A stretch of 64,000 nt of DNA from Paramacrobiotus metropolitanus (Eukaryota; Tardigrada; Eutardigrada; Parachela; Macrobiotidae). This document shows, one piece after another, positions 2,171 to 59,310 of this stretch. The stretch is taken from the NCBI RefSeq assembly GCF_019649055.1, contig NW_026570247.1:620001-684000 (forward strand), read 5' to 3'. Each line of letters opens with the position of its first letter. Within the stretch, counting starts at the first letter, position 1. A program made the position numbers and the translations under genes. Below the pieces are notes generated by a model. The model did no database searches. It was not told where the DNA came from and saw only the letters and a list, made by a program, of their open reading frames with translations.

Positions 2171-4100
2171 TTACACCGGGAAGGGTGACAGGCGGTCGGA
2201 GCGGTTGCAGTGCGCGTTGAGGACGGCGATGAGGGCCGCCGTGTCGTCCGTGGTCAGCTCGCGGGCGATCAGCCAAATTGATACCGTCAAGGTGAACGTC
2301 TGTGCGGAGAAAAACGCTAATTAATGCAAAGGTCACGGCGCACACTGCTGGATTTCGAAAACGGGAATCGGCCGGTCGGTCCGCGGTACAGAAATTGAAT
2401 AATAAAATCAACAAACAGTGCGCAACAGGAACGTGTTCAGTGCACATAAATCGCCAGCACTAGGCTCGAGCACGGAAGCGCTTGATTGCGCAGTACGCGT
2501 TAAAATAATCACCTTTTTTATCATACGCTCTTTGAGGTTAAATTGAAAAAGTGGAAATCGGCTAGCCGGTTCGCGGTTCAAAAACTGAATAATAAAATCA
2601 CCAAACAGTGCAACAGAAACAAGTTCGGTACGTACAAATTGCCAGCACTGGGTTCGAACAGAGAAGCATGTGGTTGCGTTGCGTTTAAACGAGGTACGCG
2701 TTAAAACGAGGCATCTACCCTTGGTTTTAAGGATGTATCGTACCTTGAGCACAAGGGCGCTGCTTAGCGCCACCACACCGCTGAGATGGAAGTACAGTTT
2801 GCGTTTCTTGCAGGCGGTCATCAGGACGTTCATCAGCGCCTGCATTTGAAGTCCCTGAAATTAGCTAATAGTAATAAAGATTGATTATAATTTACGCTGT
2901 ATTTGAACGTTGTATGTTTTACTTGCGGCAGCTCGGTTAAGCGCGACGTTCTCGTCATGAGCGAGCAGACAGTGACCGGAAGTTCCGCCGCCTGCAAAAT
3001 ATGTCGGGAACTGGTTAAAAATGATCCCTAGAATAGTATAATATAACAATAGTGTTTTTTACCAATTTGTGGATTTTCAAATACGGTAAAATGAAGACAA
3101 CCACGAGGAACCCATAGAACACAGATCCGATAAGACTCTCAACAAAACTGCTGATATTGAAGGTCTTGTTGTGCTCCTGCAGCTGCATCACATGACTGAA
3201 CATATTCAGCAAATCCAGGCAGAACGCCGCGGTACACGCCGGACTAAACGTGGCGTTCAACGCTTTCGCCAAACCATACAGTTTTTCATGGTAATCCAGG
3301 AACGCGTACGTCGCCGCGTTCACATCCTGAACCGTCAGAGTTTTCTCCGATTTCTCCCCGAGCGATGACACCGTCGTCGCCGTGGACCCCGAACGCTCCT
3401 CCTCCCGGAAACCGGTTTTCATACTCTCCTGGAAGAAATCCGTGGCTTCCCGCATGACACATCCCAGGGACATTTGGAGGACGTTGACGAGAAGGGATAA
3501 GTAGTACGGGACGACCCCGCACACCAGCCACACAATATGCGCCCGGTTCTTACTAATATCCAGGCCCAACGCCCGAAAGGTCAAGCTGGGTTCGTCCATC
3601 TTGCCGGTGATGTAGCGCTCCGTGTAGGTCCATATGGCGTCCCATGTCAGCAGCGCCAACGCCAGCAGGACCACCGCCCAGCGCGCCTGGCGGCGCCACA
3701 CCCCGGGGCGGTGGCCACGGTCCCCCAGGAGCGTCCCCCGCGGGAGACGGGCGGACAGGAGGAGCGCGGTGTGGCGGTGGACGGTCGGGAGGTGGTTTCG
3801 ACCCACCAGGAATAAAGTGAGGACCAGGTAGCCGCGCAGAATGGTGCCCAGCTGCCCGATGTTCTTGCCCATCCGGAAGAAGTCCAGGCCGGGATCGGCG
3901 GGGTCCTTCTGGAGTTTCTGGAGGAAGGAGAGGACGTAGCCGAGGGACTGGAAGGTCAGGTAGGATAAACCGGTCAGCGGGATGATGACGGCGGCGAGCT
4001 TCGCGCGGCTGAAACAGCGGGGAGGGGATGCGTGCGGGATGATGCCGAAAAAGGTCAAGATGTCTACAGCCTCACTGGCCACATGCATGGCGCGGTTCAT
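2171..4100 (-). CDS. Gustatory-receptor-like seven-transmembrane protein (4 exons)
   Basis: Exons on the minus strand are 4100-3063, 2991-2923, 2854-2744 and 2299-2171, all joined in phase 0, giving 448 residues, a usual size for invertebrate gustatory receptors. The first exon carries most of the hydrophobic segments (for example LVLTLFLVG, WAVVLLALALLTWDAIW, IVWLVCGVVPYYLSLLVNVL and FYGFLVVVFILPYL). The third exon holds LYFHLSGVVALSSALVL and the last exon TFTLTVSIWL. Several short phase-0 C-terminal exons carrying the last membrane segments are a known feature of the arthropod Gr family. The usual TYhhhhhQF signature is not intact (TFTLTVSIW instead), so the family call rests on architecture. 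Expected role: ligand-gated cation channel or chemoreceptor in sensory cell membranes. Intron 3 carries two SINE-like copies; a minisatellite abuts the start. Confidence 0.7.
2361..2500 (+). repeat. Dispersed tRNA-like repeat, copy 2 (in Gr intron 3)
   Basis: Same block order as the copy at 264: GGGAATCGGCCGGTCGGTCC, TGAATAATAAAATCAACAAA, CGCCAGCACTAGGCTCGAGC, then GCGCAGTACGCGTTAAAA. The B-box-like core is mutated here (GCTCGAG). Confidence 0.65.
2551..2712 (+). repeat. Dispersed tRNA-like repeat, copy 3 (in Gr intron 3)
   Basis: Follows copy 2 by about 50 bp in the same orientation. It has TGGAAATCGGC, TGAATAATAAAATCACCAAA, GCCAGCACTGGGTTCGAACA and a tail ending GTACGCGTTAAAACG. It retains the cleanest B-box-like core of the plus-strand copies. 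Confidence 0.65.
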
Positions 4101-4122
4101 CCTGCTTTTTGTCTAACTGAAA

Positions 4123-4312
4123 CGTCCGGATACGGAAATACACTCAGGCTAAAACGTCCGGTTACGATTTTACGCCCTGGCAGAAGCGTCCAAATACGAA
4201 TTTACGCTCCGGTAGCAACGTCTGGATACAAATTTACAGTCAAGCAGAAACGTCCAGATACGAATTTACAGTCAGGCGGAAGCGTCTGGATACGAATTTA
4301 CGGTCTAAAAAT
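4123..4312. repeat. 32-bp minisatellite, 6 copies, upstream of the Gr-like gene
   Basis: Units begin at 4123, 4155, 4187, 4219, 4251 and 4283, a period of exactly 32 bp. The consensus is roughly CGTCYGGATACGAATTTAC followed by a GC-containing spacer. Units differ by several substitutions but no indels. The array begins only 22 bp upstream of the Gr-like start codon (4100, minus strand), so it occupies the 5' UTR or core-promoter position. Confidence 0.9.
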
Positions 4313-5510
4313 CTTGTTATAACAGTTACTGTTCTAATTTCTAGAGTGCAGTGGCACAATTTTCTAATATTCTCCACGATACGTACGGGATAAAAATGTC
4401 CTCTTTTCCGAGTTGCCGTAAAACGACGGATTCGGTGAGAACTGCATTATCAGCTGTTTACTATACAATATCATGGTAGGGTTCCTGATTAGCCTTTATA
4501 CAGTGTGTTTTATCCACGTTGCCGACGTCGGCTAAACTGTGCCCGCGGAATAAGCCCTTGGGAATCTTACTTTCGTGCATCGTCATCGCTACAGTTGCGG
4601 TCGTACTGGACATGACTGGATGTCGCGCTGGGGCGACATGTATTCGACCTTGCGGCACTGGATACGTAGTATTCATAGGTTTCCCGCGAGGGTTGATTCA
4701 CCAGGATGTTGATGGAAGGCGATCCTACCCGATTATGCCGGCTCCGCAAGTGACTCATGTTGTGACGTAGTTTTGTTACGGTTATCGTAACCAGGTTTAT
4801 TACTCTAAGCAGGGCGCTATCCACTGGAAACCGAGAAACGACCGAAAAATGCACCGATGGGGGAGTCGAACCCCGGCTACGTCGTTAGATCCGCATAGGT
4901 AGTACCACTGCACAACGGCGCAATACGTTAAAATCCTTTGAAAGATTTTGTCGCTGTACGTGAGTCGCTTACGATAAACCAGTTCCGTACGTAGCCTTTT
5001 GACTGGATTTTACTGATTAATATTTGTTCGTTAACGTACGTGAATCGAACTTGGAACGCTGACATACGCTTCCCAAGCTCACCAACAACGATTTTGTTGT
5101 TTGCTAATATTAGCATTCGAATCATTCGTAATGAGTGTCGCCTGTCCACTAGCGCGGGAATTTTCGTACTTCTATTGATTATTGTTGAAAAAAGATAGGT
5201 GGACTTGGAATGCTCCCCGTGGCATGTCCCGGTGGTTCGTATGAATCTAAGCACATACTCTGTTGTGTGGATTTACTTTTGCTGAATGCAGAACTAACGG
5301 CAAGGAAGCACTGAATAAGCTTCTCGCAGCAAAGATGGTTGTATAGGGTGCCAACCTACGTATTATTCGAAAAAGGTCAACAAGTTCCTAGTGTTTTTCC
5401 AGGTATGCCTTGAGCGCTGCGCCAGTATGTTTTTCTTATACGACAGCACTCGCTACAGCCTTTACTACTCTCGTCCTGGTCCAACGGGAGGAGGACAGAC
5501 CAAAACCCGA
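4313..5510. other. Intergenic region
   Basis: Holds the tRNA-like sequence at 4850-4921 and short open frames without support. One plus-strand frame (4519-4770) has a hydrophobic stretch but no splice or homology support. Confidence 0.5.
4850..4921 (-). tRNA. tRNA-like sequence or degenerate tRNA (tRNA-Gly-like), probably a pseudogene
   Basis: Read on the minus strand this 72-nt stretch has an A-box-like TGTGCAGTGGTA, a B box GGGTTCGACTCCCC forming a T arm, and 5' and 3' ends pairing as an acceptor stem (GCGCCGT with TCGGTGC, 6 of 7 including one G-U) followed by A. The D arm is one base short, the T stem has an extra base, and no clean seven-base anticodon loop forms. Boxes, length and ends resemble tRNA-Gly. 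A decayed gene or SINE head is more likely than a working tRNA. tRNAscan-SE would decide. Confidence 0.4.
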
Positions 5511-9790: not shown

Positions 9791-10537
9791 GGAGGTCCAT
9801 GCTATACTTGAGCGGGATAGCGGTTTACTGTCGGCAACGCTCGAGCATCGTGTAGTGTTTCACTGAGAGTCTACTTGGCTAAATGCTTGCGGCGACCAGC
9901 AGCGGCACTCAACTTGGTTAATCTGTTGACCAACACGATGTACATGGTCGGCTTGCGACGTGTACGCACTAAATCTTTTTTAATGCGCTTAGCGTCCGCC
10001 TAACCTGTGTCTCTGACCATTAGCACTCGGGAGAAGAGGCATTAGTACAATGTTAGTGCTTCGTTTAACGAGCACCAGCGCGAATACGTACGTATTTTGA
10101 AGTTTACATACTGTTACCGTTGCTTTACTATAGAAGACAGTAATAATAATTTAACTTTTAATAATAATACTTTTTTTAGTAACTGAAGCAGGAATATACT
10201 TAGAAAGTACGAATATACTTAGAAAGTACGAATATGGTGAATTATTCATTTTTAGTTGTTGCTGTGCCTAACGGCAGACGCTTATTCCTCTTGCCGCGAA
10301 CACAAAATGGCGGTTAAACGCCCATGAATCTTCTCTCGCTCATGTGCGACCTTCATAATCAGTCTATCGCTTTTCCAGAATACGGCTATCTGCTCAGTAG
10401 CTGTACAGTTTTGGATGGACTCCGCTCGTATCTGTTGTTTAATCGTCATTGTATCACACTCATAATCACAGAGTATTGCACCATGCAGTCTTTTCACGCC
10501 AACACCATTCATGCAACCGAACAGGGAAACTCCCGAC
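9791..10537. other. Intergenic spacer
   Basis: Nothing coding recognised. A 19-bp unit beginning GAATATACTTAGAAAG is repeated about 2.4 times near 10192-10237. Confidence 0.5.
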
Positions 10538-11589
10538 TTAAGGCGGTCCAGGCAGCGGTCTGACGGTGCTGGCTCCCCCGGCCGGTACCCCGGGTGTGGA
10601 GTAGCCGCCGAACATGGGCGGGTCGGTGCGGATGTAGGGCTTCAGGCCGAAGATAAACTCGTTGTCGTTGATCAGCGTCTTCCGCACACCCGGTCCGCCG
10701 CCCATGGCCAGCTGGCCGTAATTGCTGGCGTCCTGGTGCTGCGTGTCGTACATGGCGGCCTCGTCGTCCGGACTCGTTTCACCCGCTTCCTAATCAATAA
10801 ACCGACTAATAATGACGTGTTGGCTATTAACAATAAATGTGACCTTTATTCGTTTGTGATGACTGAAATAAAATTAAAGAAATTACATTAGTGACCTTTA
10901 CCTTTCCCAGTAGCTACTCAGAAAACTTAATGTATCATCGCCAAAATTAAGAGATTATGGGGACCTTCCTAGCAAAACGGCATCATTAACTTTCGAAGGA
11001 GCCGCACCGACACCGCTTACACCGCTTACGTCTAAAAGTATCTCTTAATTGCACTGTAATATAATCAAAACCGTAAGCGTGACCTTTACCTTTCCCAAGT
11101 CATAAAAAAATCAATCCAAATCGCAAGCATGACCTTTATCTCTTGCGATTTTTTTAATAAAAATGTTTAGAAATCAAACACTGGTCTGCGCTTTTTTGGC
11201 GATAGTCCGCAAACCGTTTCTCTTGCATTGATAACATAATTTACATTAACCTTTAAAAGTCGACCATTATACGGAAAAGAGCAAAACCGTACCTGACGGA
11301 GGTACCGCTCCGCAGCATCGCCCGAAGGCAGCAACTGCGCTTCCGCCACCTGGTAGATGGGTTGATCGTCCATCTGGCGGGCCATCTGCAGCTGATAGTG
11401 GGGGTCCTCCCAGAAATGCCACTCCGGCTGGTACATCTGACGTGCGGGCATTAAGGGCGCCGCCGCGAAAGCCCCGGTGTCTTTGTAGAATTTACGCCAG
11501 GGATTGGGGTCCTTGAAAGTCGCGCTCGTGCAGCCTATAATCAGCGCCACACTGAGGGAAAAGAGTAAAGCGCCTGTTGGCTGTCTCAT
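10538..11589 (-). CDS. Small secreted protein, unrecognised (2 exons)
   Basis: Exons are 11589-11293 and 10789-10538, joined in phase 0, giving 182 residues. The N-terminus is a clear signal peptide (LLFSLSVALIIGCTSA). The mature part begins with aromatic residues (WRKFY, EWHFWEDPHYQ), then an acidic linker and a Gly/Pro-rich tail (MFGGYSTPGVPAGG). There are no cysteines in the mature chain and no family that I recognise; a disordered secreted or cuticle-type protein, or a peptide precursor, is possible. Intron 1 is notable: it holds four TGACCTTT octamers (10840, 10892, 11080, 11130), two of them extended to TGACCTTTACCTTTCCCA. Confidence 0.6.
10840..11137. promoter_or_regulatory. Intronic cluster of four TGACCTTT octamers
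   Basis: Within the single intron of the small secreted protein gene the octamer occurs at 10840, 10892, 11080 and 11130, all in one orientation. The copies at 10892 and 11080 share 18 bases (TGACCTTTACCTTTCCCA). AAAGGTCA is the monomeric nuclear-receptor site called NBRE (NR4A/HR38 family). Regulatory function here is inferred from clustering only. Confidence 0.4.
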
Positions 11590-28444: not shown

Positions 28445-28454
28445 GAACTTTTTA

Positions 28455-42212: not shown

Positions 42213-43043
42213 TGTTAATCAGCGTCACCTTGATGGCAGCCTATATAGGCGTTATTTTTTACGTTCTTATTGGAGGCATAATTTTTCTTATTATTTCTTT
42301 GTGTGATTGCGGTGTTAACGATGAAAGGTCACAGCAGCCGGTTGTGGAGCTTGGATTTTACGTACTGCCTGCATAGAGCAGTCGCAATCCGGCATAAACA
42401 AAACATAATTCTGGCGACAGAAGAGCATTCTGGTCCACTATGCCAAGTGCAGTTACTGCTTATTTTCTATATTCAAGGACACGAAGAAAGATCAAATTTT
42501 AGGATTTCTGTTAAAAATATTTAAGTACTGTAATATAAATTATAAAGCAGCCGTTGCTAGGGCAACCTGCCACACACACACACACACAACTGATCCTCGA
42601 CTGGAAACACGCTCAATCTGAGATTCAATGTTTCGGCCCTGAATTTAGTAGCTTTATTATGGAGCGAAAATTATTATAAACAGCAGCAAGAAATAAATGC
42701 TGACTGCCGAGCAAACTGTATACAAAAACTCCAAGCATGATGCCAGCACAAAAAATTAAATCACGTTAATGAAGATATCACTACTTGATATTCTGCAAAA
42801 GTGCACATAGTGTAAGCACATAACAGTGCATAAATTTCTATGACGCTAATATATGGATAAACCGCAAAAGAACAACTGCGTGAAAATACCAAAAATCAGT
42901 CATTTGAAATACCAAAAAATTTCCATTTGACTTTCCTGGCTAAATTTCCATTTAAATCTCCTGAATCAGCCGAAGGCCCGGACATGAAAAATCCAAATTT
43001 AAAAAAATCCTGATAAAACTCGGAATGTTCTCCATCTGATGCC
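42213..43043. other. Intergenic spacer between the RING gene and HYDIN
   Basis: AT-rich with a short CA run near 42575 and one AAAGGTCAC at 42323. It probably contains the HYDIN promoter; no element is identified with confidence. Confidence 0.5.
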
Positions 43044-46000
43044 ATGATGCGACGCACACTGCCGCGCAAGCGGAAGAGCCCGCAACAACTACCACCCGCA
43101 GCGAAAAAGGCGCGTCCCGCCCCCTGCGTCACGGGATGCCCGCTCCAGAAGTCCCAGTCCTTCCCTGACCTTTTGGGATTATACTCCATCACCCCGCTTC
43201 CCGCGGTCCCCTTACCCCCGGAAGATACGCCCCCGGGTCCAACGCCCTGGGGCTTCACCCAGCCCAACATGTTCTTCGACCCCTCCTCCTACACCGCGCC
43301 TCCCGAGGAGCGTCCCTTCGACCCTGTATCCCAGTTGCAGCGGACGCTGTTCCAGGAGCGTCTTCGCGACCCGCCGGAAGTTGAACCGGACGTCCGGATG
43401 AAGCCGGCGTCCGTAACGGTACCGTCGACCGTCAACTTTGGGAGCTGTTTGTACGACGTCATCCAGACGGCGACGATCACCATCACTAGCGCATCGGGAA
43501 CGGCCATGGGGTTCTCCATCCAGGGCGCGGGGCCAGGAATCCGGATACTTCCGTGTCAGGTGTATGTGGATCCAGCGGAGGGTATCGCCGCGGTCGGGGA
43601 GACACCTCTCCAGGTGACCTTTCTCCCGGGACGTCCGGGGTGGTTCCAGCGGACCTTCCGCGTGTGTTTCCATAACGACGTGGACGCGGTGGTCAGCGTC
43701 CTCGGGAACGCGGTGTTCAAGCACGTCCTGGTGGATCTTCCCAGGGGAAAACACAGCTCGTTGTTGACGTATACAGATACCTTGAAAATGGACGACCAGG
43801 CTGTGCGGAAATGGGCCCGAGCCGCTGTGAAAAAAGTACGCGCCGAACACCGCCTGTAAGCTGCAATTTTCTAAATAAAATATATTTCTTCGCAAACCCT
43901 CGGTCTACAAATTCCGGTTGCAGATCCAGAAAGGTCACCCGCGCCCCGATGTCCAGAAATCCGCGGACCCGACGCGACCCTACCAGGGCGTTCTGAGCCA
44001 TGCGCTGCTCCCGCCGTACATTTTGGATTTTGGTGTCCTGTCGAAATACGACGCGGACGCCAGCCGGAGCGTCCGGGTGACCAATCCCACCGCCTATGAG
44101 GTGCAGTTCCGTCTCCAGCAGACCAACGATCCCCTCCGGACAACCATCCACGTCAACTACAACCGGCACGTGGTGTTGGCCCCGGGACAGACGACTACCT
44201 TTACGTATTCCGTCTCCGTGAAGGAGCATCCCGTCGGACCGACCCAGTGCCCGATTCCCATCCTGGTTCCCGACGGACCGACGATCACCGTGGTCGTAAA
44301 GACAGATATCCGGGTTCCCAGTATCGGCGTCCGTTTCGGCTGCCAGGAAGTTGTATGCCACGTCGCCGACCAAAAAATGCCGGAGCTGGATTTCCGCGTG
44401 GTCCGGTGCGGGTGCGCCAGCGTCCTGTCGGTGCAACTGGTTAACCACTCCCACGTGGCGGTGGCGTGGACGGCCACAGGGAGGGATGTGGATTTCCCCG
44501 CACTGTCTAAAGGCATGGATCCCAAACAGCGGGCGATGCTGCGCGCCAGCCGGGATCAGCGTCCCATCTTCCTCCTGCATCCCGGGAAGGGAATCCTGGA
44601 GCAGCGGGAGTGTGCCAACCTCCGGGTGCAGTTCCGTCCCGTGGATTCCCGGCGGTGCAGCTACGCCTGGGCCATCGAGGTGCCGTACTCCGCCCACCGA
44701 ATCATCCTACGCGCCACGGGAACCGGAGAGATCCCGCGCCTGCAGATTTCGCCTACCGCTGTGACCTTTGGATCGATCCTCCCGTTCTCCGCCGGGCAGG
44801 AGCGGAACATTACCGTGCGGAACCCGTGTCCGTTTCCTATTGAGTTTTTTTGCGTGGAACTAGACCAACAGTTCGTTGCCGAGTGCCAGTTGTTGATGCA
44901 AGTGGAGGAATTCTCCCGGGAGAACGCCGTGCTCTTCCCGGTGCGCCCGCTCGGCGGTGGCCTGCCGACGGAGCTGTGGGAAGCGTACATGAAAGCATCG
45001 GGTGAAGAGAGCAGTTTAAACCCCGTGACCTTTCCGGAGCATCTCCGGGATCATCTTCCCCGTCGGATCAGCGGCAGTGTCTTATCCCGACAGTATTCCA
45101 CAAAACGGGAGATGTACCGGGATCTGCAGCAGGTGGTCAAAACCCCGCTTGACCACGCCCTCGACAAATACACCGCAATTAACGACACTGTCGACGCGAG
45201 GAAGGAGCAGTTAAAAAGAGGGATCATCTTCCTTATCCACGGTCCGCCATCCTGTGGGAAGTCCACCCTGGCAAAATCCCTTGCCAAATACTACCGCATT
45301 CCGGTTTTATCCATCGACAAGATTATCCTTTCCGCGCTGGAGGACCCGACGGACCCGGTGCGTCATAAAATCCTGACCTTTGTCACCAACCCGGCCATCT
45401 CCGCCCAGCATTCCCAGGCGGCGATGGGTATGCAGACCCCGCCGGGATCCGGGGTCGGGAAGCCGCGGGAACCCGGGAAGCTGAAAGCCCCGCCCACGGC
45501 CAAACCCCAGAAAGCCCCCAAACCGGCGCCACCGCATGCCAAACCCCCGTTGCTGGGGGTCGACCCCAACGTCTCCCGGGATCGCTCCGACCCGGACCTG
45601 GCGTTCCAGTCCAAGGTCCTCCGCTACAAGAACTACCTGACCGACGAACCGACAGAAATCACCACTTGCGTCCTCCCCGATGACCTTTTGATCCAGCTGC
45701 TGAGCTGGAGGTTGTACCAAGCCGACTGCCGCCGCGGGGCGGTCTTCGACGGGATGACCAGCGACTTCCTGGACTCCTCCGCGACCCTCCTGAAAACGGT
45801 GCTCACCGCGGTGGAAGCGCGGCGACAGATCCAGGCGTTCACCATCTGCGACAGTTTCCGGGATTACTGCGTCCGGCTGCAACGCCTCCAAAGGTCATCC
45901 CGCAAGAACGGGGAGTACGCGACGGTGATGCGGGAGATGGCGGGAATCCGCGGGATGCCGGAGGCGGAGTACCGCGCCCTGCCGGTGCAGCGCCGGCGCG

Positions 46001-49000
46001 CCGTGGACCGGACGGTGGCGGAGTATGCGCGGATGATGCGGGAAGTCAAGAGCGGGAAGCGGTGCGGTTGAAGGCGCTGGCGGAGGTTATCCCGCCCGAG
46101 GCGCCGAAGGAGGCGGCGCTGTCAGCCAAAGTGCCGCACAAGGGCGGCGGGTCCTCGCATAAACTGCCGGCGATTGTGGAGGACCTGTCGGATCATAAGT
46201 CCATGGCCAGCCGGTCCAATCCGGAGGCGGTTAATCAGGGCAGCGCCGTCAAGTCTAATAATCGCGGACAGACGGCGAAACATTCGGTGTTGAAGCTCAA
46301 AGGTAATTGCATACTTTCTTATGATTGATTTCAGCAGCATTTACAGTATTACGCGATCTGCAATTACTAATATCGGTAGGTTCGTACAAACCTTCAAGTG
46401 GGTTATCAGCGTAAATTTTTTACATCTACAAAATAAAAATAATATTTTATTGAAAACCGATAATGTCATATTTTTCGTTTATTCGATGTAGATATACTCG
46501 TATATTTTCAGAATATAATACTGTAATATTCTCAATTAATTGTCTACTTGTTGACTGAAGCGCAGTTTCCTCTAAGTTCAGGGAAACAGGAATTTGTATC
46601 CATCAAGTCAATTACGTCGGTCGAAAACCAATGACCTTTTACAACACATGCATGAAAAATTCATTTTACAAAGTAGTAGGCAATAGTTGTCGAAAATGGG
46701 AACGGTACCAGCGCGGCCACAACACTTCCTGCACAGAAAATACACTAAAAAAGCAGCCAGCCAACATCTGTGTCTTTTGATGGGTTAAAAAGGATCGTAC
46801 TTAACCATTGAATGAACACATACGTATTATTTCCCTTAATAACAACCCGCTGGCTAAGCGAAGAAGTAGAACCTCTCGAAAAAATCTGGAAAATTTTATT
46901 AAAGGTCGGTACAGTATCTTGAAAACTGAACGACAATAATTATGCTAGTAAAAGAAACAAGTTGTTTAAAACAAATGAAAAAATTGATGAATAATTTAAT
47001 ATCGTAATGAATATTGTGCTCATATTCACTTTTTAACTCATATTTACGTTTTGTGGAATTATTGTTTGGTGATTTTATTGTTGAAAATTATTAGTCCGTG
47101 GCCGGTATGACCGGCTTGGCCGCTCCCGTTCCAGAGCCTAAATGACTTTTGCTTCACTTCGGTCGAAAATTACTGGTACATTATAATTTTGACATCATGG
47201 GTCGTCGATTACAAGTACGAGTACAATTCGAACTAATCGTTTCTAACAAAACTTCTACTTACTTCTATTTACATGTGTTCAGATAATTCCGTTAGTTACT
47301 TACAATATTTGTATTTGAATAATTTGCGTAGTATTTCAATCAATATTATTTCAAGCAGTCTATTGGGTTATTCTTCAACTTCCAGGAAAGCCCGGCCTTT
47401 CAGCGAAGGATCGCGAACGGGACGCCGTCTCCGAGCGCCTGCCCCGCGATTCGTGGAGGATGTCACTGAAAGGTCAACTAGAAGGTCAACCTCCCAAAAT
47501 CGCCCAGTCCGAGGCGTACCGCGCCCATAAAGCCTTCTTTGCCACCCTGAAAGACTACGTCAGTATCGCGACCAAATGGACCAGCGCCGGGAAACCCGAG
47601 ACCCTCCGGAAACCCCAGCGCCTGGACGGCACGAAGGACTCCCAATCGGCCGCCGGGAAGAAGCGCAACACTAAACTACGCGACCTTAAAGCCAAACCGC
47701 GGGAGCGCACGGAGACCGAACGAGCCGAGCGCGACCGCGCCGCCATCGAGCGGGTCCAAGCGCGGTGCCGGCGGAAACGGGCCTTCGGGGTGAAGCACCA
47801 CCTGATCCTGCGAAAGAACACTGCGCCCGGGGACGACAGTCTGATTGATTTCCACATTGACCGATGGCGTTTCCTACCGTTGTACGAAAAGGTCAACAGC
47901 ATCACTTCCGCCGTCCTGGACCTCCCCAAACCGGCGGTCTACGCCGTCCGGGAGCTTCCAAAGGTCATCCCGACGGTCTCCGACCCCGGGGGACTGCCGT
48001 TCCAGTTCGCGACGGCCCTCACCGAGATGCCGCCGGTGTCCGTAGTCACCTCCGTGGCCCCGCCCATCCAGACCTCCAGGCAAGTTAGCAAGGACGACGC
48101 GCCGAGCCCGGACCGGGTCACCTCCGGCGGGAAGGACACCAGCAGTGTGGAGAGTCGCGGGAGCAAGCTGGCCACGGCGCTCAAACCCGACCGGGCCAAG
48201 ATCGCCAAATCCGCTAAACCGCGGACTGTCGGGTCGGCGCAACCGCGGGAGGGTCCGTCCAGCGAGAAGGAGGCGAAGTCGGTGACCCCGACGGACCCGT
48301 CGCTCCTCTACCCGGCGTTCCTCAAAGCGAGGGTCTTCAGTGAACCGAAAAGCCGGCCCATCCACCACTTCCGGTGGATGCTCCCGGCGTTCGGGGAGAC
48401 CGTCCTCCGGGTGCTTCTCCGCTCGGACCAGGAGAACGTCTTCCGGAGCACCTTCACCTTCAAGATTGTCGACTACCCGGAAGCTGAGTACCCAGTGCTG
48501 TTGAAGGGACGCTGCAGGTATTTCGATCTGTTTCGCGATCTGACGAAATTCTTCCCGAAAGAAATGTGGGTCGAAGCGGTCACCGATGAAGCCCGCGCGC
48601 CGGTTTATGCGGAAACGGAAAGAAAGCTGTATTTCGGACCGTTGATCTACGGAAAGAAGAAACCGGATGTGATTGCCGGGAAGTGCCTACCACAACACGT
48701 TTTCCAGTTCACCCTGCGCAATCCATATAAACGCCCGCTTTTCACGCATTTCGCATTGCCGAAACGCACCGTCGCCAACGCTAAGGAAAAGGTCACCTCA
48801 CCGGATTTTACGGTCATCCCGGATCAGTGCCTGTTGGCCGCCAAGGAAGAGAAAATCATCCAGATTTTTGCGCATCCTTCAGTTCAGGGAAAGTGTGAGG
48901 ATACTTTATACGCTTTCACCGAATTCAACCCGGCGCCGACACAAATCGTCCTCTCCTGTTTATCGGTGAAGCCCCAGGCGGAAGTCCTGACCAAATCCCT

Positions 49001-52000
49001 GGTGATCGAGAAGGTCCCGATTCGGGAGACCGGAGTCGGGAACATCGAGGTCCGCAACAAAACGGTCCTCCTCCCCATCAAATGGCGCCTGTTGGGCACG
49101 GACGCCCTGCCTCCCGAATTCGTCCTGGAGCACCGTGACGGCGTCCTGAAACCCACCGCCGACATCCAGATGATCCCGGTGAAGTTCGTCAGCACCATCG
49201 ACAAGCCCGTGGTCCACGCCAAAAACCACTACGCCTGGAGTTCAGCGCCGAGGACCCGGACGTCGGAATCCTGGGGACGGAGGCCGTCCTGGTGTCGGGC
49301 GAGAGCTACGACCTCATGCTGGACATCCAGTTCCCCAAGGTCCAGGAGTCCGTCCTGGATTTCGGGGTGTGCCGGGTGGGGGACGAGGTCACCCGTCAGA
49401 TCACCGTCAAGAACCGGACGAAGAACGACTGCGGCTACCACTTCTTCGCGGTGTTCGAGGAGCTGGCCAAGCGACTTCCGGTGGAGGCGTTGAAGACGTT
49501 GATCGAGTTCCAGCCGGCCAACGGGCTCCTGACGGCGGCCGACCGCCCGGTGACGGTCAGCATCACGTGCCGGCCGCGTTTCGAGGTGGAGCTGAAGCTG
49601 GAGAAGGTGGTGCGGTGTCAGGTGCTGGATCCGGCGCGGGCCTACCAGCGGGTGGCGGAGATCCCCATTCGGACGTCGCTGGTGGCGGCGTACACGAAGT
49701 TTGTCCTGGCGCCGGCGGTGGGGGATCTGCGGTTCCCCTGCAGTCTGCCGCTGCAGAAACGAACCCGGGTCATCACGCTGCAGAATGTCGGCGTGCATGA
49801 CGTTAGCTACACGTTCCGGAAGGTGTCGGCAGTGCCGCTGCAGCAGCCTTCTACACAGTAAGATCCAAACAAAACTTCTAATTAATAATGTAAAATAAAT
49901 AAATAATATAAAATAAATAATTTAATAAGCTTAATAAAATTTATTATGCTTGGATCAAGCATTTATTAATTTATTAACCCAGGAAAACCGGGTACTAGAA
50001 GGCATGGGACTACAGTTTTGAAAATTGGCAGTCTGGAACAGAAAAATTCAATTAAGAAAATCATAATTTTTTCGAAATTTTAGCGACCATAGGTCAAGCA
50101 GGAGATGACCATGTCGGCCTAACACGCATGGTAACAATGTTGCGCCGACATGTTATTCATTGCCGCTTATAAAAACTGATAAAAAAATCGCATAGATTAG
50201 GTCAATAGCTCAATCGATAGATCTCAACGAGTACTTCATTACAAGTGCATTGTGATGGTAATCGGGATGACCAGTGGTCAAGAAAAATTTTAAAACTAAA
50301 AATCACTAAAATGCACCATTACATAAGTGCTAATTGGATATTTCGCAACAGTTGGTCACTTCTGCTTATGTTTTGGACAACTGGTCATCGACCTTAATGT
50401 GGATCACGGCTTGAGTAACATGTGCAGTGGAAGTAATGCTACATCCGGCTAAACAGCTGAACGGGATAGTAGAGCTAAAAAGCCGGGCTGGTTCCGGAGA
50501 ATGATCACCATCATCAATATACCGGTGGTCAATTCTTCAAAGTGTTTTACAAGTGGCCAATTGTTTAGAAATACGGAATTTAGCACATCAAGGCCAGTAA
50601 AATTCTGCCAAGCCGGCTATATATACTTGCGTCAGCACATGTACAAAACAACAAATTTTGGTATTTAGAAAAGAAGACCGGACTTCTAAGTCACTTCAAA
50701 TCAGCGTTATATACTCGTATATATTCTCAGCTTTGCACAGATTGATTTCTACAAGTTACAAGGCATGCCGCATGAGCGCTCAAAGACCGGAAGGTCAAAA
50801 TGTGGGCTGATGCAAGAGCACAAGCGTCGCTAGCAGAGGATTAACGCGAGATAAATAACTTTTACAGGACTTCTCACTCATTGCTACAGTTTATTTCAGA
50901 TAAAATTTGCAAAGAATATACGAATTGTTCAATGAACAATGGAGTAGCCAGCTCGAATGGCAAGGAACGATGCCAATAATAGCACTCCGCACACAAGCAA
51001 ATGCACTGTACAGCCGATATAGCCGATCTGTACGGCCGATATAGCCGAAACAGCCGTTCACGCAACTATTCCGGTCCGACGTTCAGTCGTTTATGCGGTT
51101 ATATTGTAGTTAGTACGGGTCATAGCCATTTCGAAGACACGGACAGCAGTCATTACAAGACTGTTTTGCATTTTTTACATTTATTTTAATGGCGCTTAGT
51201 CGAAAATTACATTTTTCGGGTTTCCGGCCTGTGCTGACCAGTGGTCACTTCGCTGACCATTATGTTCCAGTCAGTTAATACAACAATTTATGGGCTTTCT
51301 TCTGTGATGCTTCTGTTCCGTGTCCAACATGGCAAGGGCGTTAACGGAGCTATACGTTATAAACTGTAGCCTGACCTCTGTTCTTTGCAATAAAACCATT
51401 AAAATCAACATATGACCATAATTACGAATAAGAGAGAAGAAGTCCTCCACCATGTCGGTCTAACACGCATAGTGTGGAACGGGTTAAGCACAATAAAATC
51501 TAATATCTATTTATTAAGCGTATTATAATTTTATAGTAAAAATGATAATACAAAAAACCCATAATTAATAAATAAGCTGAATAAACTTGATTAATAATAA
51601 AAATAATAATACAAAAAATTTACAATTGCCAAAAAGGTATGATTTTTAAATCTGGAACATCGAGGAAAATTCTATAAGTAATCAAGTTAGGTGATTTAAA
51701 AATTGAAAGAACAACCAAAATATACAGATGCATACAATCTGACTAAATGAGGAGGCTACGGTCTATGTTAAAAAGCCAGCGAACAGCCTTTTTTGCCCGC
51801 TGAGGCTGGTTGATCAATGCAGCCTCTCTGTTGTGACTATAAATAGACCGAAGACAGCGCATTCCAGTGCTGCCAAAAAGCGCAAGCGGAGTGCTGCCTT
51901 GCTGTATCGATCGATCGGCACATGTCTGTGTGAGTGGGTAAATCCGCTCGCATTCACTTACACACGTATGAGTGTGGCTGTCTGTGCGCGTACTAGCTGT

Positions 52001-55000
52001 ACAAACCGGTTTTCGCTGTCTTCGCTACAACGCATACCCTAAACCCGTAGCTTCCTTTCTTGCTCGCATTGTAGATCAAGCAGTGGCAAGAAATTAAAAA
52101 AAAAAATAATTTCATTAGTAAAACAACACTGGTTGGCTGAACAAATTGTCGGTCTCATCTTTGGTCGGTTTCTCATAAACCGCTTGCTGCACCGTAATCC
52201 GCTTATACGTACTCATTCGATAGACAATTTCATTAGCTACAGGAAACCATAGAACGTTTTCGAAAAAAGTAAGGCATTCACAATGAGAATTGCGTCGTTG
52301 GAAATTCTGTAAAAATTTGTTCTGTCCAGTACAAGTACAAGATGAGCTATGCAATCAATGCGCTTTGTGAGTTTACGAAAAAAGATGCCGGTTGTTTTTA
52401 TTTGCTTTTTTAAGCGCCTTCAGTTGCAGTTTTCAATTACGCTTCAGGCGATAGACTGCCACAAAAAATTCGCATTCAGCTGACCCTTCAGAAACTGGTT
52501 TGAACCAGATGCGTTGCTGAAAAATTTGCTCCCGAAAAGTCTGTAGATAAATTTCACGAGAAGAAAATGTGCGAGGTGTGTGATCCTCCCGTTTCTGAGC
52601 TTAACGGGATCAGCTAAAGGTCACAAGTTTTTACAAGCATCCCTCTACCCGAAATACTGACTTGACATTCCGCAACCTACTTCCTTGGGTAACTGCAATT
52701 TTTTATTTAAAAATGAGAAAATTCAAGTTTCTGTCCAGGACATGCTGCAATTTTGCCCATTTTTTCAAAACAAATGTTGTGCTATAAACAACGCTCTTTT
52801 GAATGAATCTAACATGACATCAATCAAGCGCTGGGTGACGCAGGGCATCGTGGTAAAGCCGACCGGCATTTTGTTCAGTCACCCAGTAAATACCATACAC
52901 CGAAGATCACTGCATTTCAGATTATCTTTTCTATAGGCCTTCAGCGACGTATTCCAAATCGAAAGCCCTGGAGGCGCCCAACACCAGGAGCCCCCTTGAA
53001 CGCCAAACCCTCGACGACCAGCACCCACTCTACCAAGAAGCAGGACGCGGCCGCCCTGGCCGCGCTGCAAGCCGGTCCCTTCGCCATCAAACCGCTGCAG
53101 GGCGTGGTCAAGCCCAACGACACCGCCACCATCACCGTCGACTTCTGGTCGGACGTCATCGGCGCCCACGCCGACGAGTACATCCTGGACATCCCCGACC
53201 GGGACGCCGTCCGCCATCCGCAGGACCTGGTGTACCGTGTCTCCGGCGACATCGCCCTGCCCACTATCGACGCCAAGGACACCGAGACCATCTTCCTGGA
53301 GCACCTGCTTCTCCCGGCGGAGACTGCTACCCTCCCGGAGGCGGCGGTAATGGAGCAGTACCTCATCGGCCGCTCGGTGTACTTCCCCAAAAAACGGCAG
53401 TTCTTCGTCCAGCACACGTTTGTTGGGACGAAACGCCGGCTGAATTTCCGGTTCGTCAACCCCACCAAAGTCCAGTGCACGACGTACTTTGTGCTGAAAG
53501 GTCAGCGGAAGAACGCGAACGACGGGTTCTCCCTATTCCCGACGACCCCGGTGACCATCGAGCCGCACCAATCCATCCTGGCGACGGTGACTTATTCCCC
53601 GAGCATCTCCGGGAAGTCCCAGGTCGGGCTGGAGGTCCTCACGGAGTCCGCGTTCATGCAACCGACCAAGACCGTGGCGTTTGTGTTCGATATAATCGCC
53701 GAGGCGGTCCTCCCAAACATCCGCATCCTGGAGCCGACCTTCCGGGACCGGCGGAAGCAGCTCAGCCTGGTTTTCCCGAAGCAATTCGTTGGGGGCATGT
53801 TTTCCTTGCCTGTTGTGTTATTCAACGACACCCCGCTTCCGGTCAACGTGGCAGTCCGGGTGCGCAGCAGCGACGACGTGTTCCGGGTGACGCCTCCCGA
53901 ATCCGGGTCGGGAGACGCCTCGAATCTCCTACTTCCGGCCAGGAGCGAAAGATCCGTGACGGTGCAGTTCATCCCGACCTCGCCGGGACGTTACCGACGT
54001 TATTTGGACATCACCTGCGTGGACAACATCTGTCCGGACATGGGTGTGCTCCTGAAAGGCGAAGCGACGACCTCCGACGTCCGTTTCGACGGTCTCCAGC
54101 CAGTCGATTATAAATGGCGAATGCGCCTACTTGTAGCGATGGGTCCGCAGTACGAGGACGTCCTCATGGAACCCTACCACATCTCCGCCGGTGACTGCCT
54201 CCCGAACCAGACGACCAAGACGACGTTCCGTATTCTCAACGTAACGTCCGACTGGATTCGCTACGAATGGGTTAAACTCGGGGAACTGGTCGAGCTGACA
54301 CCGCGAGCGGGACACCTCCGCCCACAATCGGCCTTCATTTTGACCGTGACCTTTCGCATAGAAGAATCAAAGACCTACGTTCTCCCGTTAAACTGCGTGA
54401 TTACCGGGATCCAGATTCCGGATAACTACGATGTTGAGGCTCCCTGGAATTCTGACCGAACGACGGTGCAGATCGTCTCCGACCGGCGTCCGCGTCCCGA
54501 CAGCGGCGCCCTCCTGACCTCGTCTCTAGATCGCCTGACCAGCGAGGAAGGCGACGACCACAGTAAGGAGAAAAAAGGAACATAAGAAACCGCCCGCAGC
54601 CACCACCGCCAAGAAGACCAACAAGGATCGGAAATCGAAAAAAGAGTCGGTGCACCGCAAAGGCACTGTGGACGCCGCGGACCCGGGGAAGCGACGGGAG
54701 TCGGATCAGAAGAAACTCCCAGTTCATAGTAAAACGGAAGAACCGAAGAAAGCGGTGAAAGAACCGGCTTCCCGTTTAACTGAGCACAAGGACGATCCGG
54801 ACGCCGCCCAGCAAACCGTTACCATCCCGGCGCCGGAGCCGGTCTGCGCCCCGGTTCCCAGTTCCTCGCGAAATCTGATGCTGATCCTGTCGGCCATCGC
54901 CGGCTACCCGAAGTACGAATGCGATCAAGTGGAACTTTTATTTAAGGAGACGTTTGTACTGGAAAAGCGTAAGGTGACCTTTACAATAAAAAACACCGGG

Positions 55001-58000
55001 AATGTGTTGATCGCCTACAAAGCGGCCTTCGCGTCGTCCGCCGAAGACTGCGCCCGGCATATGGAGCGCGTGGTGGAAAGGAAGTTGTCACAGCCAAAAG
55101 GCGCCACGCTAGCTGAAGAGCCGGTGCAGAGTTTGACGCCTTCGCTGATTGGACGCGGCGAGAAAGGCCGGCATGCGTCGCCGCGTGGTCTCACCGCCGT
55201 CTCCACCACCGACACAACCGCCGCCAAGGAACCGCCGCCCAGTGGGTCTAAAAAGAAACGTCGCGTCTCCAAAGACACTGCGTCTAGCGATGCGACGAAA
55301 GCGCCGGACACCGCACCCCCGTCGGGGACGTCCGGGAGCTCCGGGAAGCCCTCCGTCACCGTCCGGAAGATCGACGCGCTCATGTTCCGCAACCTCGGGA
55401 AAGGTCAAACCGCGGATTTGACCTCAGCGTTCCTGGTGAATCCTGGGCAGGGACAGATTCTCCCCGGAAACACGGAGACCTTCGAGGTGGATATCATCCC
55501 GGAGGATGCAATGGAGTACCTCGGGTGTTTAGTGATCGACATGGACAATCAGGATCCGAATACTCCGCCGTTGATTCTCCCGACATACGGCGTAGGACGA
55601 CTCCCGGTCGTCCACTTCAGCACCACCGGCGAACCTCCCATAAAGGTCACGGAGGTTAATGGTGCCGAGTACAAATCCCTGGAGTTCCTCGGCATTGGAA
55701 CCAACAGTGCAGTGAAGCGTCAACTGGTCCTGACGAACCCGACCGACACATCCTACGAGGTCAAAGTCTCTTGTCTCGATCCCAACGACGGGGACCGCCC
55801 CGCGTTCGAATTCAGCCGAGAAGTGTTCACCGTTGCTGCCGGGAAGCGGACTCCCGTCGATATCACATTCTTACCACGTTCCCTCGGCCGCAGTGATTCC
55901 AAATGGAACGTTGACATTCCCACCGCCGCGGTCAACGTCCCGTTTCTCCTAACCGCCGTGGTCCGCGATGCAACGGTGACCCTGTCCCCACCAGTGCTGT
56001 CCTTCCGCCCGATGCTCCCCCGCATGAAACGGGGGAGCTAAAATTCGCCCTGGAGAACACAGAGACGATTCCCTTGATGTTCGGCGTGAACATGGCGCAT
56101 TTTAAGGGATTCAGTGAAGCCACGTGGACCGTTGCTCCGATCAGCGGCGTGATTCCCGGACGATCCACAACGGGTTTGTCGATTGTCTTCCAGTCGACAA
56201 AGGAGTTCCGGATGGAGGCGCCGTTGCTGGTGAACGTCGAACGGAGGAAACGGCCGCTGCAGTGCATCCTGGATCACGAGGTCATCGCGCCTTCCGTTGA
56301 AGTGGTATTTATCAACGAAGGTCATCGAACCACGGTCTCCGCGGCGACGGAAACCGTCGCGGATTTCGGGGACAACGATCTACACAGTACGTACAAGCGG
56401 AGCATCCAGATTTCAAACGTCGGACCGATCAACGCCGAATACACAATCAGATTATTCGGAAAAGACCGCAGCAAACCCATTTATCTGCCCTTTTTATCCA
56501 TTTCCCCGCTCAGCGGCATCGTCGCTCAGAACACCACCACCACCGTTTCATTGGTCTACGCTCCGAAAACGATGAAGGACACACTCGGTGACCTTTACCT
56601 CATCGTCGACATCGAATTCGGAGGGCGGTTCGTCCTGGCGCTGCAGAATCACCTGCATTCCTTAGACGTGGATTTCAGCTTCGACGAGTGTGATTTTGGC
56701 CCAGTGTTGATCAGTCGCGACTGTCCGGGAACCGGCTCCACGGTGCCACTGGTCATCGCCAATCAGACCAGCAAGACGGTATCCGTTGACCTATTGAACT
56801 ACGACCTCCCGGCCTGTCTAGCCTTCGAATTCGAGACGCTGAGCCTGAAATCCGGGCACAGCACGCTGCACACGGTGATGTTCCTGCCGGTGGACGTCGG
56901 GATGTTCGGTGGGTCGTTGACCTTTCTCATCAACGCCTCAGTGACGAAGACGCTTGCCCTCCGCGGCGAAGGGGTCCCGCTAATTCTGGAGGTCCCTGCC
57001 GAGATGCGGCAGCTGACGTTTACAAAGGTGACGGTTGGGATACCGACGACGTTGCCGTTAAAGGTCATCAACCGGTCGAAGACGGAGATCACCGGGAGCG
57101 TCCACTTCTCGGTCAATTCCGCCGTCCAAGATCTGATTAGTCAACAAATGCTGGTCATTGCCCCGGCCACGCCCATCACGATCCTCCCGTCCAAATCAGC
57201 GGTAGTCAATGTTACGCTGTCGCCGAATAAACGCATCCCGCCATTCCAAACCAAACTGCTCTTCACCACGGAACACAAGGTAACGCGGGAGCTGGCCACC
57301 GTCAGCGGGAGTTGTCCAGGGATCGACGTGACGCTCGACGAGACCATGGTGGATTTCGCCAGCTTGGTCCTATCGGGCTCCTTAACCCGTAACGTCGTCA
57401 TGAAGAACGCCGGCGAACTGGGCGCCCACTTCACCTGGGAGACCGAGCGTCTGGAGCCGCACTTCTCCATCAAACCCAGACAAGGATACATCTCCGCAAA
57501 AGGGGATACGGTCCTGGAGGTGAACTTCGCCCCGAAGAATCTAAACCCCGATATCCGCATCATGGACATCCTCTGCGGTATCCCGGGGAACCGCGCCCCG
57601 CTGAAACTGTCGCTGATCGGCGCCTGCGTCGCGCTGCCTCCAGCCAAGGAAACCGTGACCTTTGAGTGTCCGGTCCGGCAGACCGACAGCCGGATGCTCT
57701 CCCTCGGCAACCCAACCTTGGTTCTCTGGGATCTCCGACCACAGCTGCATGGGGCGGAGGACCAATGGATGATCCCCTGGAGCCTAACCGTCAAACCCAA
57801 CACCACCGAGAACTTCGAGGTCATCTTCCGGCCGTTGCGGATGGCGGTCACCGGGAGTCACCAGGCCAGTGTTTCCATCGTCCTACCGACAGGGCAGGCC
57901 GTGGTGTACGGTCTAGTCGGGAAGACGCTCCCTCCCAAACCCAACGGGAGGATAAGCCGGGATGTTCCGTGTCGCACCGAATACCGGGAGAAACTCACTG

Positions 58001-59310
58001 TGGCGAACTGGCTGCCGAAGACGCAGTCCTTCCGCGTGATCTTCGAGTACGTCAAACCGGACAAACCGGATCCTGGGGTAGAGTTCACCGGGAAGGATAT
58101 CGTGCATCTTCCCGGGATGGCGCAAACCGAGTACGAATTAAAGTTCCGGGCGCTGCGGGATAAAGATGTTAACCAGGTTTGTTTCTAGTAATTTTGGCCA
58201 GTTGTTCCGATAAAGTATTGAAATACGGCACTGTAGGTTTACACGTACCGGGTGGTCTTCCGATGCGATGACGGGGAGTTCCAGCATTTCGACATCCAGT
58301 ACCGGATCGTCAAGGGTCCGCCGTACGAGCCCAAAACCTTAACTGCCACGGTGCGCAGTCTGAAGAGGGAATCCGTAAAGATCCGTAATCCGCTGGAGAC
58401 CCCGATAACAGTCACCTGTGCGGTTTCCGGAGCGCCGGCCGATCTGGTCATCGACCCGGTGAGCGCGGTGACGATTGGCGGGAAGAAGGAGCTGGAGGTG
58501 TTCATGGAATATTTCCCACTGAAACCCGGAAGCGTTCAAGTACGAAACTTATTTTCGAAGAAAGTTTTTATTTTAACATTTGTGACCTTTCAGATGCGCC
58601 TGGATGGCGGAAGTATGGAGCTCGGAATGTTCTCCATGGACATCACCCTCCAAGCCCTCCCCGCCCCACCCGAACCACCGATCCTCTGCGAAACAGCGCT
58701 GGGCAGCACCTCCACCCACACCTGCAAGATCCTCAACTATTCGCGCAACCGCGCTGACTTCACCATCAAACTGGTGGAAGGCGGCATGGACTTCCAGTTA
58801 TCCGGGGATAAAACCGTCGTCTCCCTTCTCCCGGGTTCCTCCACCGCCCCCACGGAGCAACTCATCGAGGTGACCTTTGACCCGTCCCAACTGGGCGACA
58901 CCCGCGGCCGGCTGACCGCCTCATCCCCTTCGGCCGGGGAGTTCATCTTCCCCTTGGTCGGGCGCTGCACCCGCCCCAAACCCCGGGGACCCTTCACCGT
59001 CACCGGCAGCGAGACGGTGCCGGTCCTGGAGTTCCGCAATCCTTTTAACCGGACGTGCAGTTTCACGGTGAGCCTGAGCAACCGGCTGTTCCAGTGCCGG
59101 GAGAGTCTGGAGGGTGTCAAGGCGAAGAAGAGCGTGGTGGTGCCGGTGACCTTTAATGCCGGGGCCTTGGATGGGGGACTGGTGGAGGCCGTGCACGGCG
59201 GCGGTGGGACGGTGTCGGCGCAGTTGACCATCGTGGTGAAGGCTGAGGGTGGCGGGCCTGCGGTGGAGGAGGGGTGTTCGTGGGTGTACTATCTGCAGGC
59301 GGAAGTGTAG
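43044..59310 (+). CDS. HYDIN: HYDIN-like central-pair protein with ASH/MSP repeats and a P-loop kinase-like domain (6 exons)
   Basis: Exons are 43044-43835, 43924-46302, 47386-49857, 52945-58176, 58237-58539 and 58594-59310. After five one-base corrections the phases agree throughout, giving about 3,965 residues (human HYDIN is about 5,100). The chain is a string of immunoglobulin-like ASH/MSP modules, seen as repeated TVNFG, ILDFGVLSKYD, VTFGSI, VLDFGVCRVGDEV, and VTF or LTF strands closing each module. Near residue 700 is a P-loop, IHGPPSCGKSTLAKSLAKYY, with a downstream SIDKII, as in the adenylate-kinase-like insertion of HYDIN. HYDIN is a C2b projection component of the central pair in motile cilia and flagella, needed for normal beating. 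Introns range from 54 bp to 3.1 kb. The chain is unusually dense in TGACCTTT/AAAGGTCA (at least 23 in exons). The five frame changes (46061, 49234, 52977, 54571, 56031) all sit at base runs and look like assembly indels, not decay. Confidence 0.85.
45229..45330 (+). other. P-loop (Walker A) region of the HYDIN kinase-like domain
   Basis: Encodes GIIFLIHGPPSCGKSTLAKS, a canonical GxxxxGKST Walker A (GPPSCGKST), followed by the start of the nucleoside-kinase-like fold. Intact in sequence, so nucleotide binding is plausible. The region after it is followed by a Pro/Lys-rich linker (PPTAKPQKAPKPAPPHAKPP). Confidence 0.75.
49858..52944 (+). other. HYDIN intron 3 (3.1 kb), repeat-containing
   Basis: The largest intron of HYDIN. 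Two places share CCATGTCGG-CTAACACGCAT (50109 and 51450) and two share the palindrome TGACCAGTGGTCA (50268 and 51236), suggesting remnants of a repeated element. No internal gene is supported. Confidence 0.5.
58540..58593 (+). other. 54-bp in-frame intron of HYDIN
   Basis: GTACGA at the 5' end and TGTGACCTTTCAG at the 3' end. The intron is 54 bp, a multiple of three, and has no stop, so retention would add 18 residues. Its interior is AT-rich, unlike the exons, and its 3' splice region includes a TGACCTTT. Confidence 0.7.

Follow-up and report, generated by a model that had tools for sequence, protein, structure and literature searches.

HIP1 and Chi are exact short words in huge excess, genes included, that occur in many unrelated contexts; like DNA uptake sequences, they are bacterial and spread through the genome. 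The pairing-centre motifs of C. elegans are short words as well, repeated within a single region of each chromosome, and we know of no saturation of exons by them. Known NBREs are, to our knowledge, regulatory sites and do not saturate coding exons, and the choice of codons in animals is usually attributed to translation, mutation bias and splicing. VANDALs are DNA transposons. In the available part of one report (PMC5735166), VANC anti-silencing proteins are described with a 9-base word, tied to one protein and enriched in one mobile-element group; its arrays act by density, arose fast via tandem repeats, reach high density uniquely at VANDAL21 loci of Arabidopsis, and lie mainly in noncoding DNA in one orientation.

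In the Paramacrobiotus metropolitanus window analysed here, the whole stretch of 64,000 bases, the octamer AAAGGTCA/TGACCTTT occurs in 59 exact copies on both strands (30 plus, 29 minus; 2328..59154). Markov models of orders 1–3 predict 2.1–2.2, and an octamer count ranked it as the most frequent octamer of the window, with the highest z. Extension to AAAGGTCAC was found in 33 of the 59, bearing out a preliminary description that had claimed over-representation and extension of more than half the copies. Close relatives are few, as it also stated (GAAGGTCA, n = 4; TAAGGTCA, n = 1; CAAGGTCA, n = 0), and one-mismatch variants of AAAGGTCA lie at background (39 versus 33). Comparison of the flanks of all 59 copies showed them to be nearly random; when the common flanks of a repeat family were sought among the window copies, only the neighbours 10892 and 11080 had a short one. 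Given these flanks and the background level of one-mismatch variants, the window copies are not repeat debris, which also answers for the window the question of a single repeat family. As described earlier, the word is found in either orientation, within exons as well as in noncoding DNA; long coding frames hold 27 of the 59, about 2 per kb, and the flank analysis classed 31 as coding and 28 as outside coding frames. The word-free tracts were likewise confirmed: the largest gap, 9.4 kb at 11,138–20,560, has a chance of about 0.005 for 59 random points and is therefore taken as real, and the right end (59155..64000) carries no copy.

Four plus-strand copies (2328, 3576, 4050 and 5372; 2328..5379) stand at the left, two of them (3576 and 4050) within a minus-strand 365-aa ORF (3015–4112, GC3 0.76) without a Pfam match. 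A minus-strand cluster of four (10840, 10892, 11080 and 11130; 10840..11137) lies outside long frames. Ten copies (26993, 27426, 27650, 29044, 29057, 29167, 29213, 29840, 30083 and 30246; 26993..30253) lie within or close to two short ORFs, of which one gave a weak RIIa match (E 0.0011, under the Pfam cut-off), and eight more (33655, 34161, 34280, 35341, 35400, 37028, 37069 and 37118; 33655..37125) fall in no listed long frame. On the plus strand, a membrane-protein-like ORF, so judged by eye and without a Pfam match, precedes a RING-finger ORF (39830..42212, GC3 0.86–0.87), and words 40459, 40723 and 41851 lie within their coding frames. The Hydin locus, also on the plus strand, comprises coding stretches with 8 words (43017..46071), among them the frame with PapD-like and Hydin adenylate-kinase-like domains (43879–46071); an adjoining coding stretch without a Pfam match of its own (47319..49493; words 47469, 47888, 47960 and 48788); DNA outside frames with one word, 52616 (49862..52812; G+C 0.386 versus coding 0.605); and coding stretches with ASH/PapD-like domains and 12 words (52813..59310, GC3 0.70–0.77).

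Saturation at the codon level is an addition to the first reading, as is the retroelement link. Nine Hydin and RING coding stretches carry 27 words versus 1.8 expected after within-exon synonymous shuffling (z 16.6); the next unrelated octamer in the same stretches reached z 5.2. The exact word occupies 27 of 39 protein-compatible sites in Hydin and RING, 56 of 69 in Ty3-type ORFs and 1 of 11 in the longest open frames of the dynein and TCP1 loci. All compatible sites of the Hydin frame 43879–46071 (6/6) and all K-G-[HQ] sites (4/4) hold it, and in a GC3-rich codon context GTGACCTTT was counted 200 times in the genome versus 99 for four GC-ending spellings. Codons have apparently been chosen so as to retain AAAGGTCA. 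In Hydin coding sequence a DNA word appears to override the usual codon choice, and Ty3-type frames are saturated by the same word.

Three Ty3-type loci contain 125 words in 23 kb and no reversed word. Their identification comes from a protease match in L010 and a reverse-transcriptase match in L011, with L009 related to L010 by DNA comparison; the region of the protease is separated from that of the reverse transcriptase by a 577-aa ORF, which gave no Pfam match. Among 1,201 aligned columns of L010 and L011, 9 of 78 word columns differ, as do 75 of 1,123 others. Special conservation of the words, sought in this one pair, was not found, so inserted copies seem to decay. The strong enrichment in mobile elements is like that of VANC/VANDAL in the available text (PMC5735166), but the elements here are Ty3-type and their coding frames are filled in both orientations: the ORFs tested hold 63 words, 48 sense and 15 antisense, rather than mainly noncoding words in one orientation. 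Host genes are saturated too, unlike the density described as confined to VANDAL21. HNF4alpha sites in Alu repeats, on the portion available (PMC3252374), similarly are nuclear-receptor sites spread by a retroelement; those come with one repeat sequence, whereas nearly every window copy of AAAGGTCA has its own flanks.

Across the genome, AAAGGTCA numbers 42,584 copies and the reversed word 15,540, so the genome-wide level is not background, the point on which the earlier description had proposed a count. Density is 5.4 per kb in the three Ty3-type loci, and about 0.9 (0.92) in the window, but nine 4-kb stretches chosen arbitrarily on other contigs have 0.08, no more than the reversed-word level; TCP1 and random loci are also at background. 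The word-dense classes are Ty3-type retroelements, some minisatellites and some GC3-rich genes, and at least 22 of 53 sampled AAAGGTCAC copies outside the window lie in repeated contexts. The likening to a HIP1-type genome word therefore stands for excess but fails for evenness, density being very uneven. Like Neisseria DNA uptake sequences in the text available (PMC2397512), AAAGGTCA is an exact short word in huge genome-wide excess, genes included, in many unrelated contexts; unlike these, HIP1 and Chi, it is strongly patchy and carried by retroelements. It shares with pairing-centre motifs its shortness and repetition in particular regions, but it saturates exons, which those motifs are not known to do.

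Downstream flank preference is similar across the three copy classes: C stands at +9 in 15 of 31 coding, 18 of 28 noncoding and 75 of 125 Ty3 copies, and C or G at +10 in 26 of 31, 18 of 28 and 90 of 125, respectively. The preceding base varies by class (T in 15/28 noncoding; G in 13/31 coding and 49/125 Ty3). Together with this softer preference for C and then C or G, AAAGGTCA may be the recognition word of one sequence-specific protein, for which the leading candidate would be the genome's own NR4A/HR38 nuclear receptor, whose known site is the exact word. An A at position 1 separates the NBRE from ERR/FTZ-F1 sites, and since CAAGGTCA, of the ERR/FTZ-F1 type, is absent from the window, the specificity is NR4A-like; the C after AAAGGTCA fits published NR4A2 matrices. 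The genome encodes an NR4A-like receptor (second zinc finger at L078; best PDB match NGFI-B, E 4e-21). The NBRE identity proposed earlier holds for the word and the encoded receptor, with binding putative from sequence; the NBRE, monomer site of NR4A/HR38 (see PMC7901948), is the identical octamer.

Our preferred reading, held tentatively and with less than even confidence, is that dense AAAGGTCA is the word of one DNA-binding protein, favoured in retroelements and in some, perhaps male-germline, gene neighbourhoods. Dense arrays would be favoured in Ty3-type retrotransposons and in certain gene neighbourhoods of high GC3, the Hydin locus among them. Words would accumulate by point substitution, steering the choice of codons and perhaps also of amino acids, until most sites open to the word were filled. 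The likeliest benefit would be that dense binding holds DNA open for transcription in one tissue; the male germline, in which retrotransposons and sperm genes are both active, is the most plausible. A more speculative version, which we regard as doubtful, is a self-accumulating animal DNA word: one protein would favour any allele gaining AAAGGTCA, rewriting whole gene neighbourhoods and retrotransposons synonymously and perhaps non-synonymously until it occupied most of the sites allowed. Such a word would be a eukaryotic counterpart of uptake words, a germline-expression licence or drive signal, adopted by retrotransposons to pass as licensed DNA. The dense word points to a DNA-reading system new for an animal; a literature search for such a word in an animal found none among the matches listed, a part of the total. 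Should a protein read the word, host genes and retrotransposons of an animal would have a dense DNA licence in common, and one could test how such DNA escapes silencing or how a word spreads by drive.

In favour of a male-germline placement, the male-biased genes of P. metropolitanus, about 2,000 in the part of the published work available, cluster at 29 loci where sperm genes are plentiful. Against it, a published male-biased bin lies on scaffold 5, probably contig C5, on which no GC3-rich word appears among the listed places; GC3-rich word genes include receptors, not sperm genes alone. Genes around the 20 sampled unique copies were diverse, as judged by eye, and word-bearing frames at these loci have GC3 0.36–0.67, so high GC3 is not needed. 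Many of the 100 listed GC3-rich matches are, by eye, related gene-family members and so not independent. A mark of axoneme genes was rejected as unsupported: word and reversed word number 6 and 5 in 20.4 kb of dynein loci, and 4 each in 12 kb from another two axonemal stretches. An ASH-domain gene on C39 has 3 versus 3 in 6 kb.

An unlikely alternative to a protein-read word of this kind is a word that promotes itself in genome maintenance. Comparable to uptake words or Chi, it would signal recombination, repair or replication, DNA carrying it would win gene conversion, and copies would gather where conversion is frequent. This would fit the exact 8-mer with nearly random flanks on both strands in coding and noncoding DNA, which saturates permitted sites and leaves no decay trail in the window; GC3 of 0.60–0.87 in word-bearing window frames, versus 0.40–0.59 in dynein and TCP1 frames, would suit it too. 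However, DNA between the Hydin-region frames is AT-rich (G+C 0.369 versus coding 0.605), which shows no sign of regional GC-biased conversion, and that mechanism was rejected. Coding frames there also have the higher word density (27 in 14.0 kb, versus 3 in the 5.6 kb that separates them), and Ty3-type ORFs are saturated despite GC3 of 0.45–0.52 in the four frames measured.

Ordinary enhancer clusters of NBREs for HR38/NR4A are improbable. The word is the NBRE, the receptor is encoded, and some clusters lie outside long frames (10.8–11.1 kb and 29.0–29.2 kb), but nearly half of the window copies sit in long coding frames whose codons follow the word, and the Ty3-type loci carry it densely, ORFs included. 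As the preliminary description held, the density is far above that of a normal transcription-factor element, and the word behaves as a genome word.

We give similarly little credence to a chromosome-wide mark, of the kind used in dosage compensation or meiotic pairing, C27 being part of the chromosome so marked. The eight C27 stretches sampled first gave 25 words and 4 reversed in 40 kb, an excess that was partly minisatellite (L004 and L006, the two C27 minisatellites carrying the word). An even sample of twenty 1-kb stretches gave 4 versus 2 reversed, and this reading was therefore dropped as the main one and is doubtful. GC3-rich words do concentrate on C27, C24, C43 and C7 among the 100 of 200 places listed, which reach C53. 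But an uneven distribution over contigs is shared by the TTC spelling (p 0.004, in a test covering C1–C51 with some contig sizes interpolated), and label permutation of word against TTC spelling gave only p 0.04; unique-only tests kept 68 of 89 word sites and 36 of 43 TTC sites after rows in repeated contexts were dropped. Moreover, 31 unique copies are spread over 28 contigs, and the available text on P. metropolitanus argues against sex chromosomes.

Action at the RNA level, for instance as a signal for exonic splicing or for stability, has only a very slim chance: higher coding than between-frame density in the Hydin region and the prevalence of sense words in Ty3-type ORFs would agree with it, but window orientation is even, 28 window copies lie outside coding frames, and the sense word fits three reading frames and the antisense two. 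It is scarcely credible that the copies are remnants of old insertions of retrotransposons or minisatellites. The word does occur in Ty3-type elements and in two minisatellites of C27, and old Ty3 copies do leave near-variants (55 versus 29), but the window evidence largely contradicts this reading, with nearly random flanks, no one-mismatch trail, words inside Hydin exons in five frames and a Hydin stretch that, used as query, has a single match in the genome.

The window has 47.7% G+C. A COX1 search gave no match. Among 21 copy positions quoted in the preliminary description, two were off by 10 (3586 for 3576 and 22676 for 22666). Two candidate second words, CTAAGAAA and ACTCTGAC, proved to be mostly local arrays at 61.2–61.6 kb.

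The octamer AAAGGTCA (the word), which the preliminary description had put at about 59 copies against about 2 expected, was counted on both strands and found 59 times, 30 on the plus and 29 on the minus strand, where Markov models of orders 1 to 3 predict 2.1-2.2 copies; the height of this peak is biased upward because a reader picked the window for word density. The window is a local peak of that density, and the word is its most frequent octamer and the top outlier, both over the whole window and in each of the two parts analysed (0-39.8 and 39.8-59.3 kb). The next base is C in 33 of the 59 copies. A repeat family, whose members would share flanking sequence, was rejected as the source: the 25-base flanks on each side hold little further information, a short common flank being found only between the neighbours at 10892 and 11080, and all 24 one-mismatch variants sum to 39 against 33 expected, so that no series of decaying copies is seen. 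The word-free right end contains minisatellite-like arrays at 61230-61560, with units around CTAAGAAAC, and ACTCTGAC, and a 478-aa open frame, Thr-rich and mucin-like, lies on the minus strand at 5588-7024.

The word was then followed in coding DNA. The Hydin gene of the window has Hydin adenylate-kinase-like, PapD-like and ASH domains, with Hydin as its top PDB matches, and upstream of it lie a RING-finger ORF and an ORF resembling, by eye, a membrane protein. Nine open stretches of this region (39830-59310) contain 27 words, in all five possible frames. Synonymous codon shuffling inside each stretch (13,065 non-overlapping bases) left 1.8 words (z 16.6), with the next unrelated octamer at z 5.2, and a pooled shuffle gave 1.59, with a maximum of 6 in 500. 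Within these stretches the exact word occupies 27 of 39 protein-permitted sites (expected 1.5), 12 of 14 [LVM]-T-F sites and 4 of 4 K-G-[HQ] sites; since every K-G-[HQ] site is a word, these few sites hint that the word may sometimes have brought amino acids along.

Across the 169.8-Mb genome, in which the window is C27:620001-684000, the word occurs 42,584 times and its reversed-letter control 15,540 times, AAAGGTCAC 19,418 times versus 3,468 reversed, and triplets spaced 10-40 bases 1,550 times versus 0 (overlapping matches included). Thinned sampling of AAAGGTCAC yielded 53 places, against 2 for the reversed form; by context, 31 of the 53 are unique and the other 22 fall into eight repeated groups. 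The 3 kb around each of 20 of the 31 unique places held 25 further words versus 10 reversed, 11 of the 25 in two loci: L050, which matches a Ty3-type locus, and L062, repeat-like by eye only. No excess was seen in nine 4-kb stretches on other contigs (36 kb; 3 words, 3 reversed), TCP1 loci (25.0 kb; 1 and 1), dynein heavy-chain loci (20.4 kb; 6 and 5) or a second ASH-domain gene with a further dynein stretch (12 kb; 4 and 4); thus neither this housekeeping family nor the sampled axonemal genes are enriched. Sampling C27 along its length in twenty 1-kb pieces gave 4 words versus 2 reversed, so this contig carries no strong mark over its full extent.

All three word-cluster regions opened on C1 are Ty3-type retroelements, as judged from protein-domain and DNA matches: L010 has a protease match, L011 a reverse-transcriptase match, and L009 is related to L010 by DNA. 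Integrase-like sequence was seen by eye downstream of the reverse transcriptase. These loci (23 kb) contain 125 words versus 0 reversed, their ORFs exceed synonymous shuffles (18 vs 1.5, 40 vs 3.9 and 5 vs 0.5), and one-mismatch variants are mildly in excess (55 vs 29). L010 also has a 577-aa open frame (7079-8812) lying between its protease and reverse-transcriptase regions; it shows a cysteine-containing patch by eye, has no Pfam match and is a candidate element-encoded DNA-binding protein.

GC3 of measured open frames is 0.55-0.87 in the window versus 0.40-0.59 at dynein/TCP1 loci. Coding frames at 39830-59310 have G+C 0.605 and GC3 0.70-0.87 and are separated by DNA of G+C 0.37; compared with this genome's dynein and TCP1 frames, GC3 this high, with introns that are not GC-rich, is unusual. 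Word-bearing frames elsewhere have GC3 of 0.36-0.67, so high GC3 is not required. For V-T-F in GC3-rich codon context genome-wide, the word form GTGACCTTT was found at 200 places (reversed, 27), 100 of them listed and many of these by eye related receptor-like sequences, hence not independent events; the four GC-ending spellings, GT[GC]AC[GC]TTC, together gave 99 places (reversed pattern, 194). In this context we would have expected the word form to be the rarer, and it is the commoner. It is uneven over C1-C51 (chi-square 179, maximum 113 in 20,000 simulations), as is the TTC form (p 0.004), and label permutation between the two over contigs gave only p 0.04. Four 940-bp pieces around word sites (C24, C52, C7, C27) held 9 words, 5 being the sites used for fetching, and four around TTC sites (C28, C40, C5, C6) held 0. 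The word-bearing seven-transmembrane receptor-like loci are L106 and L107 by Pfam and L001 by eye. Receptor-like sequences at G000:C7:1866696-1956416, C17:780926 and C24:368407 have a common A-V-T-F-A-S context, and each was listed as carrying the word among GC3-rich codons.

Downstream of the word, all three classes of copies (coding, noncoding, Ty3-type) have a similar preference, for C at +9 and for C or G at +10, and, despite a preceding base that differs between these classes, this on balance argues for one reader. An exact A at position 1 sets the NR4A-type site apart from the ERR and FTZ-F1 type, and the ERR/FTZ-F1-type CAAGGTCA has 0 copies in the window. A zinc-finger search of the genome gave 63 exon-level matches on many contigs, by our own count about 45 separate nuclear-receptor places, of which, on inspection by eye, two are ERR-like, one is FTZ-F1-like and one HR39-like; 18 of 20 fetched pieces (L063-L082) were readable by pattern, and L078 is NR4A-like. 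The available portion of a C4 zinc-finger study of four tardigrades, including P. metropolitanus, does not contain the names NR4A/HR38 (PMC12941274).

From the observed pattern and exactness of the word we infer a reader, tissue and benefit: one protein, probably specific for the NBRE (the NR4A/HR38 binding site), would benefit DNA bearing dense words, and retrotransposons and some gene neighbourhoods would have been driven to word saturation. The benefit would plausibly be expression in the male germline; against this, the places listed include no GC3-rich word on C5, which probably corresponds to scaffold 5, where a male-biased bin lies. The closest known system is that of the Arabidopsis VANC anti-silencing proteins and VANDAL transposons, similar in motif density; VANDAL words are mainly noncoding and same-oriented, unlike the AAAGGTCA copies here (PMC5735166).

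Two unrelated minisatellites on C27 carry the word in several units (L004, ~1620-2320; L006, ~1990-2160; units about 21 bp and 27 bp by eye). At 630-650 of L008, two words in opposite orientation, with starts 13 bases apart, lie within a near-perfect inverted repeat.
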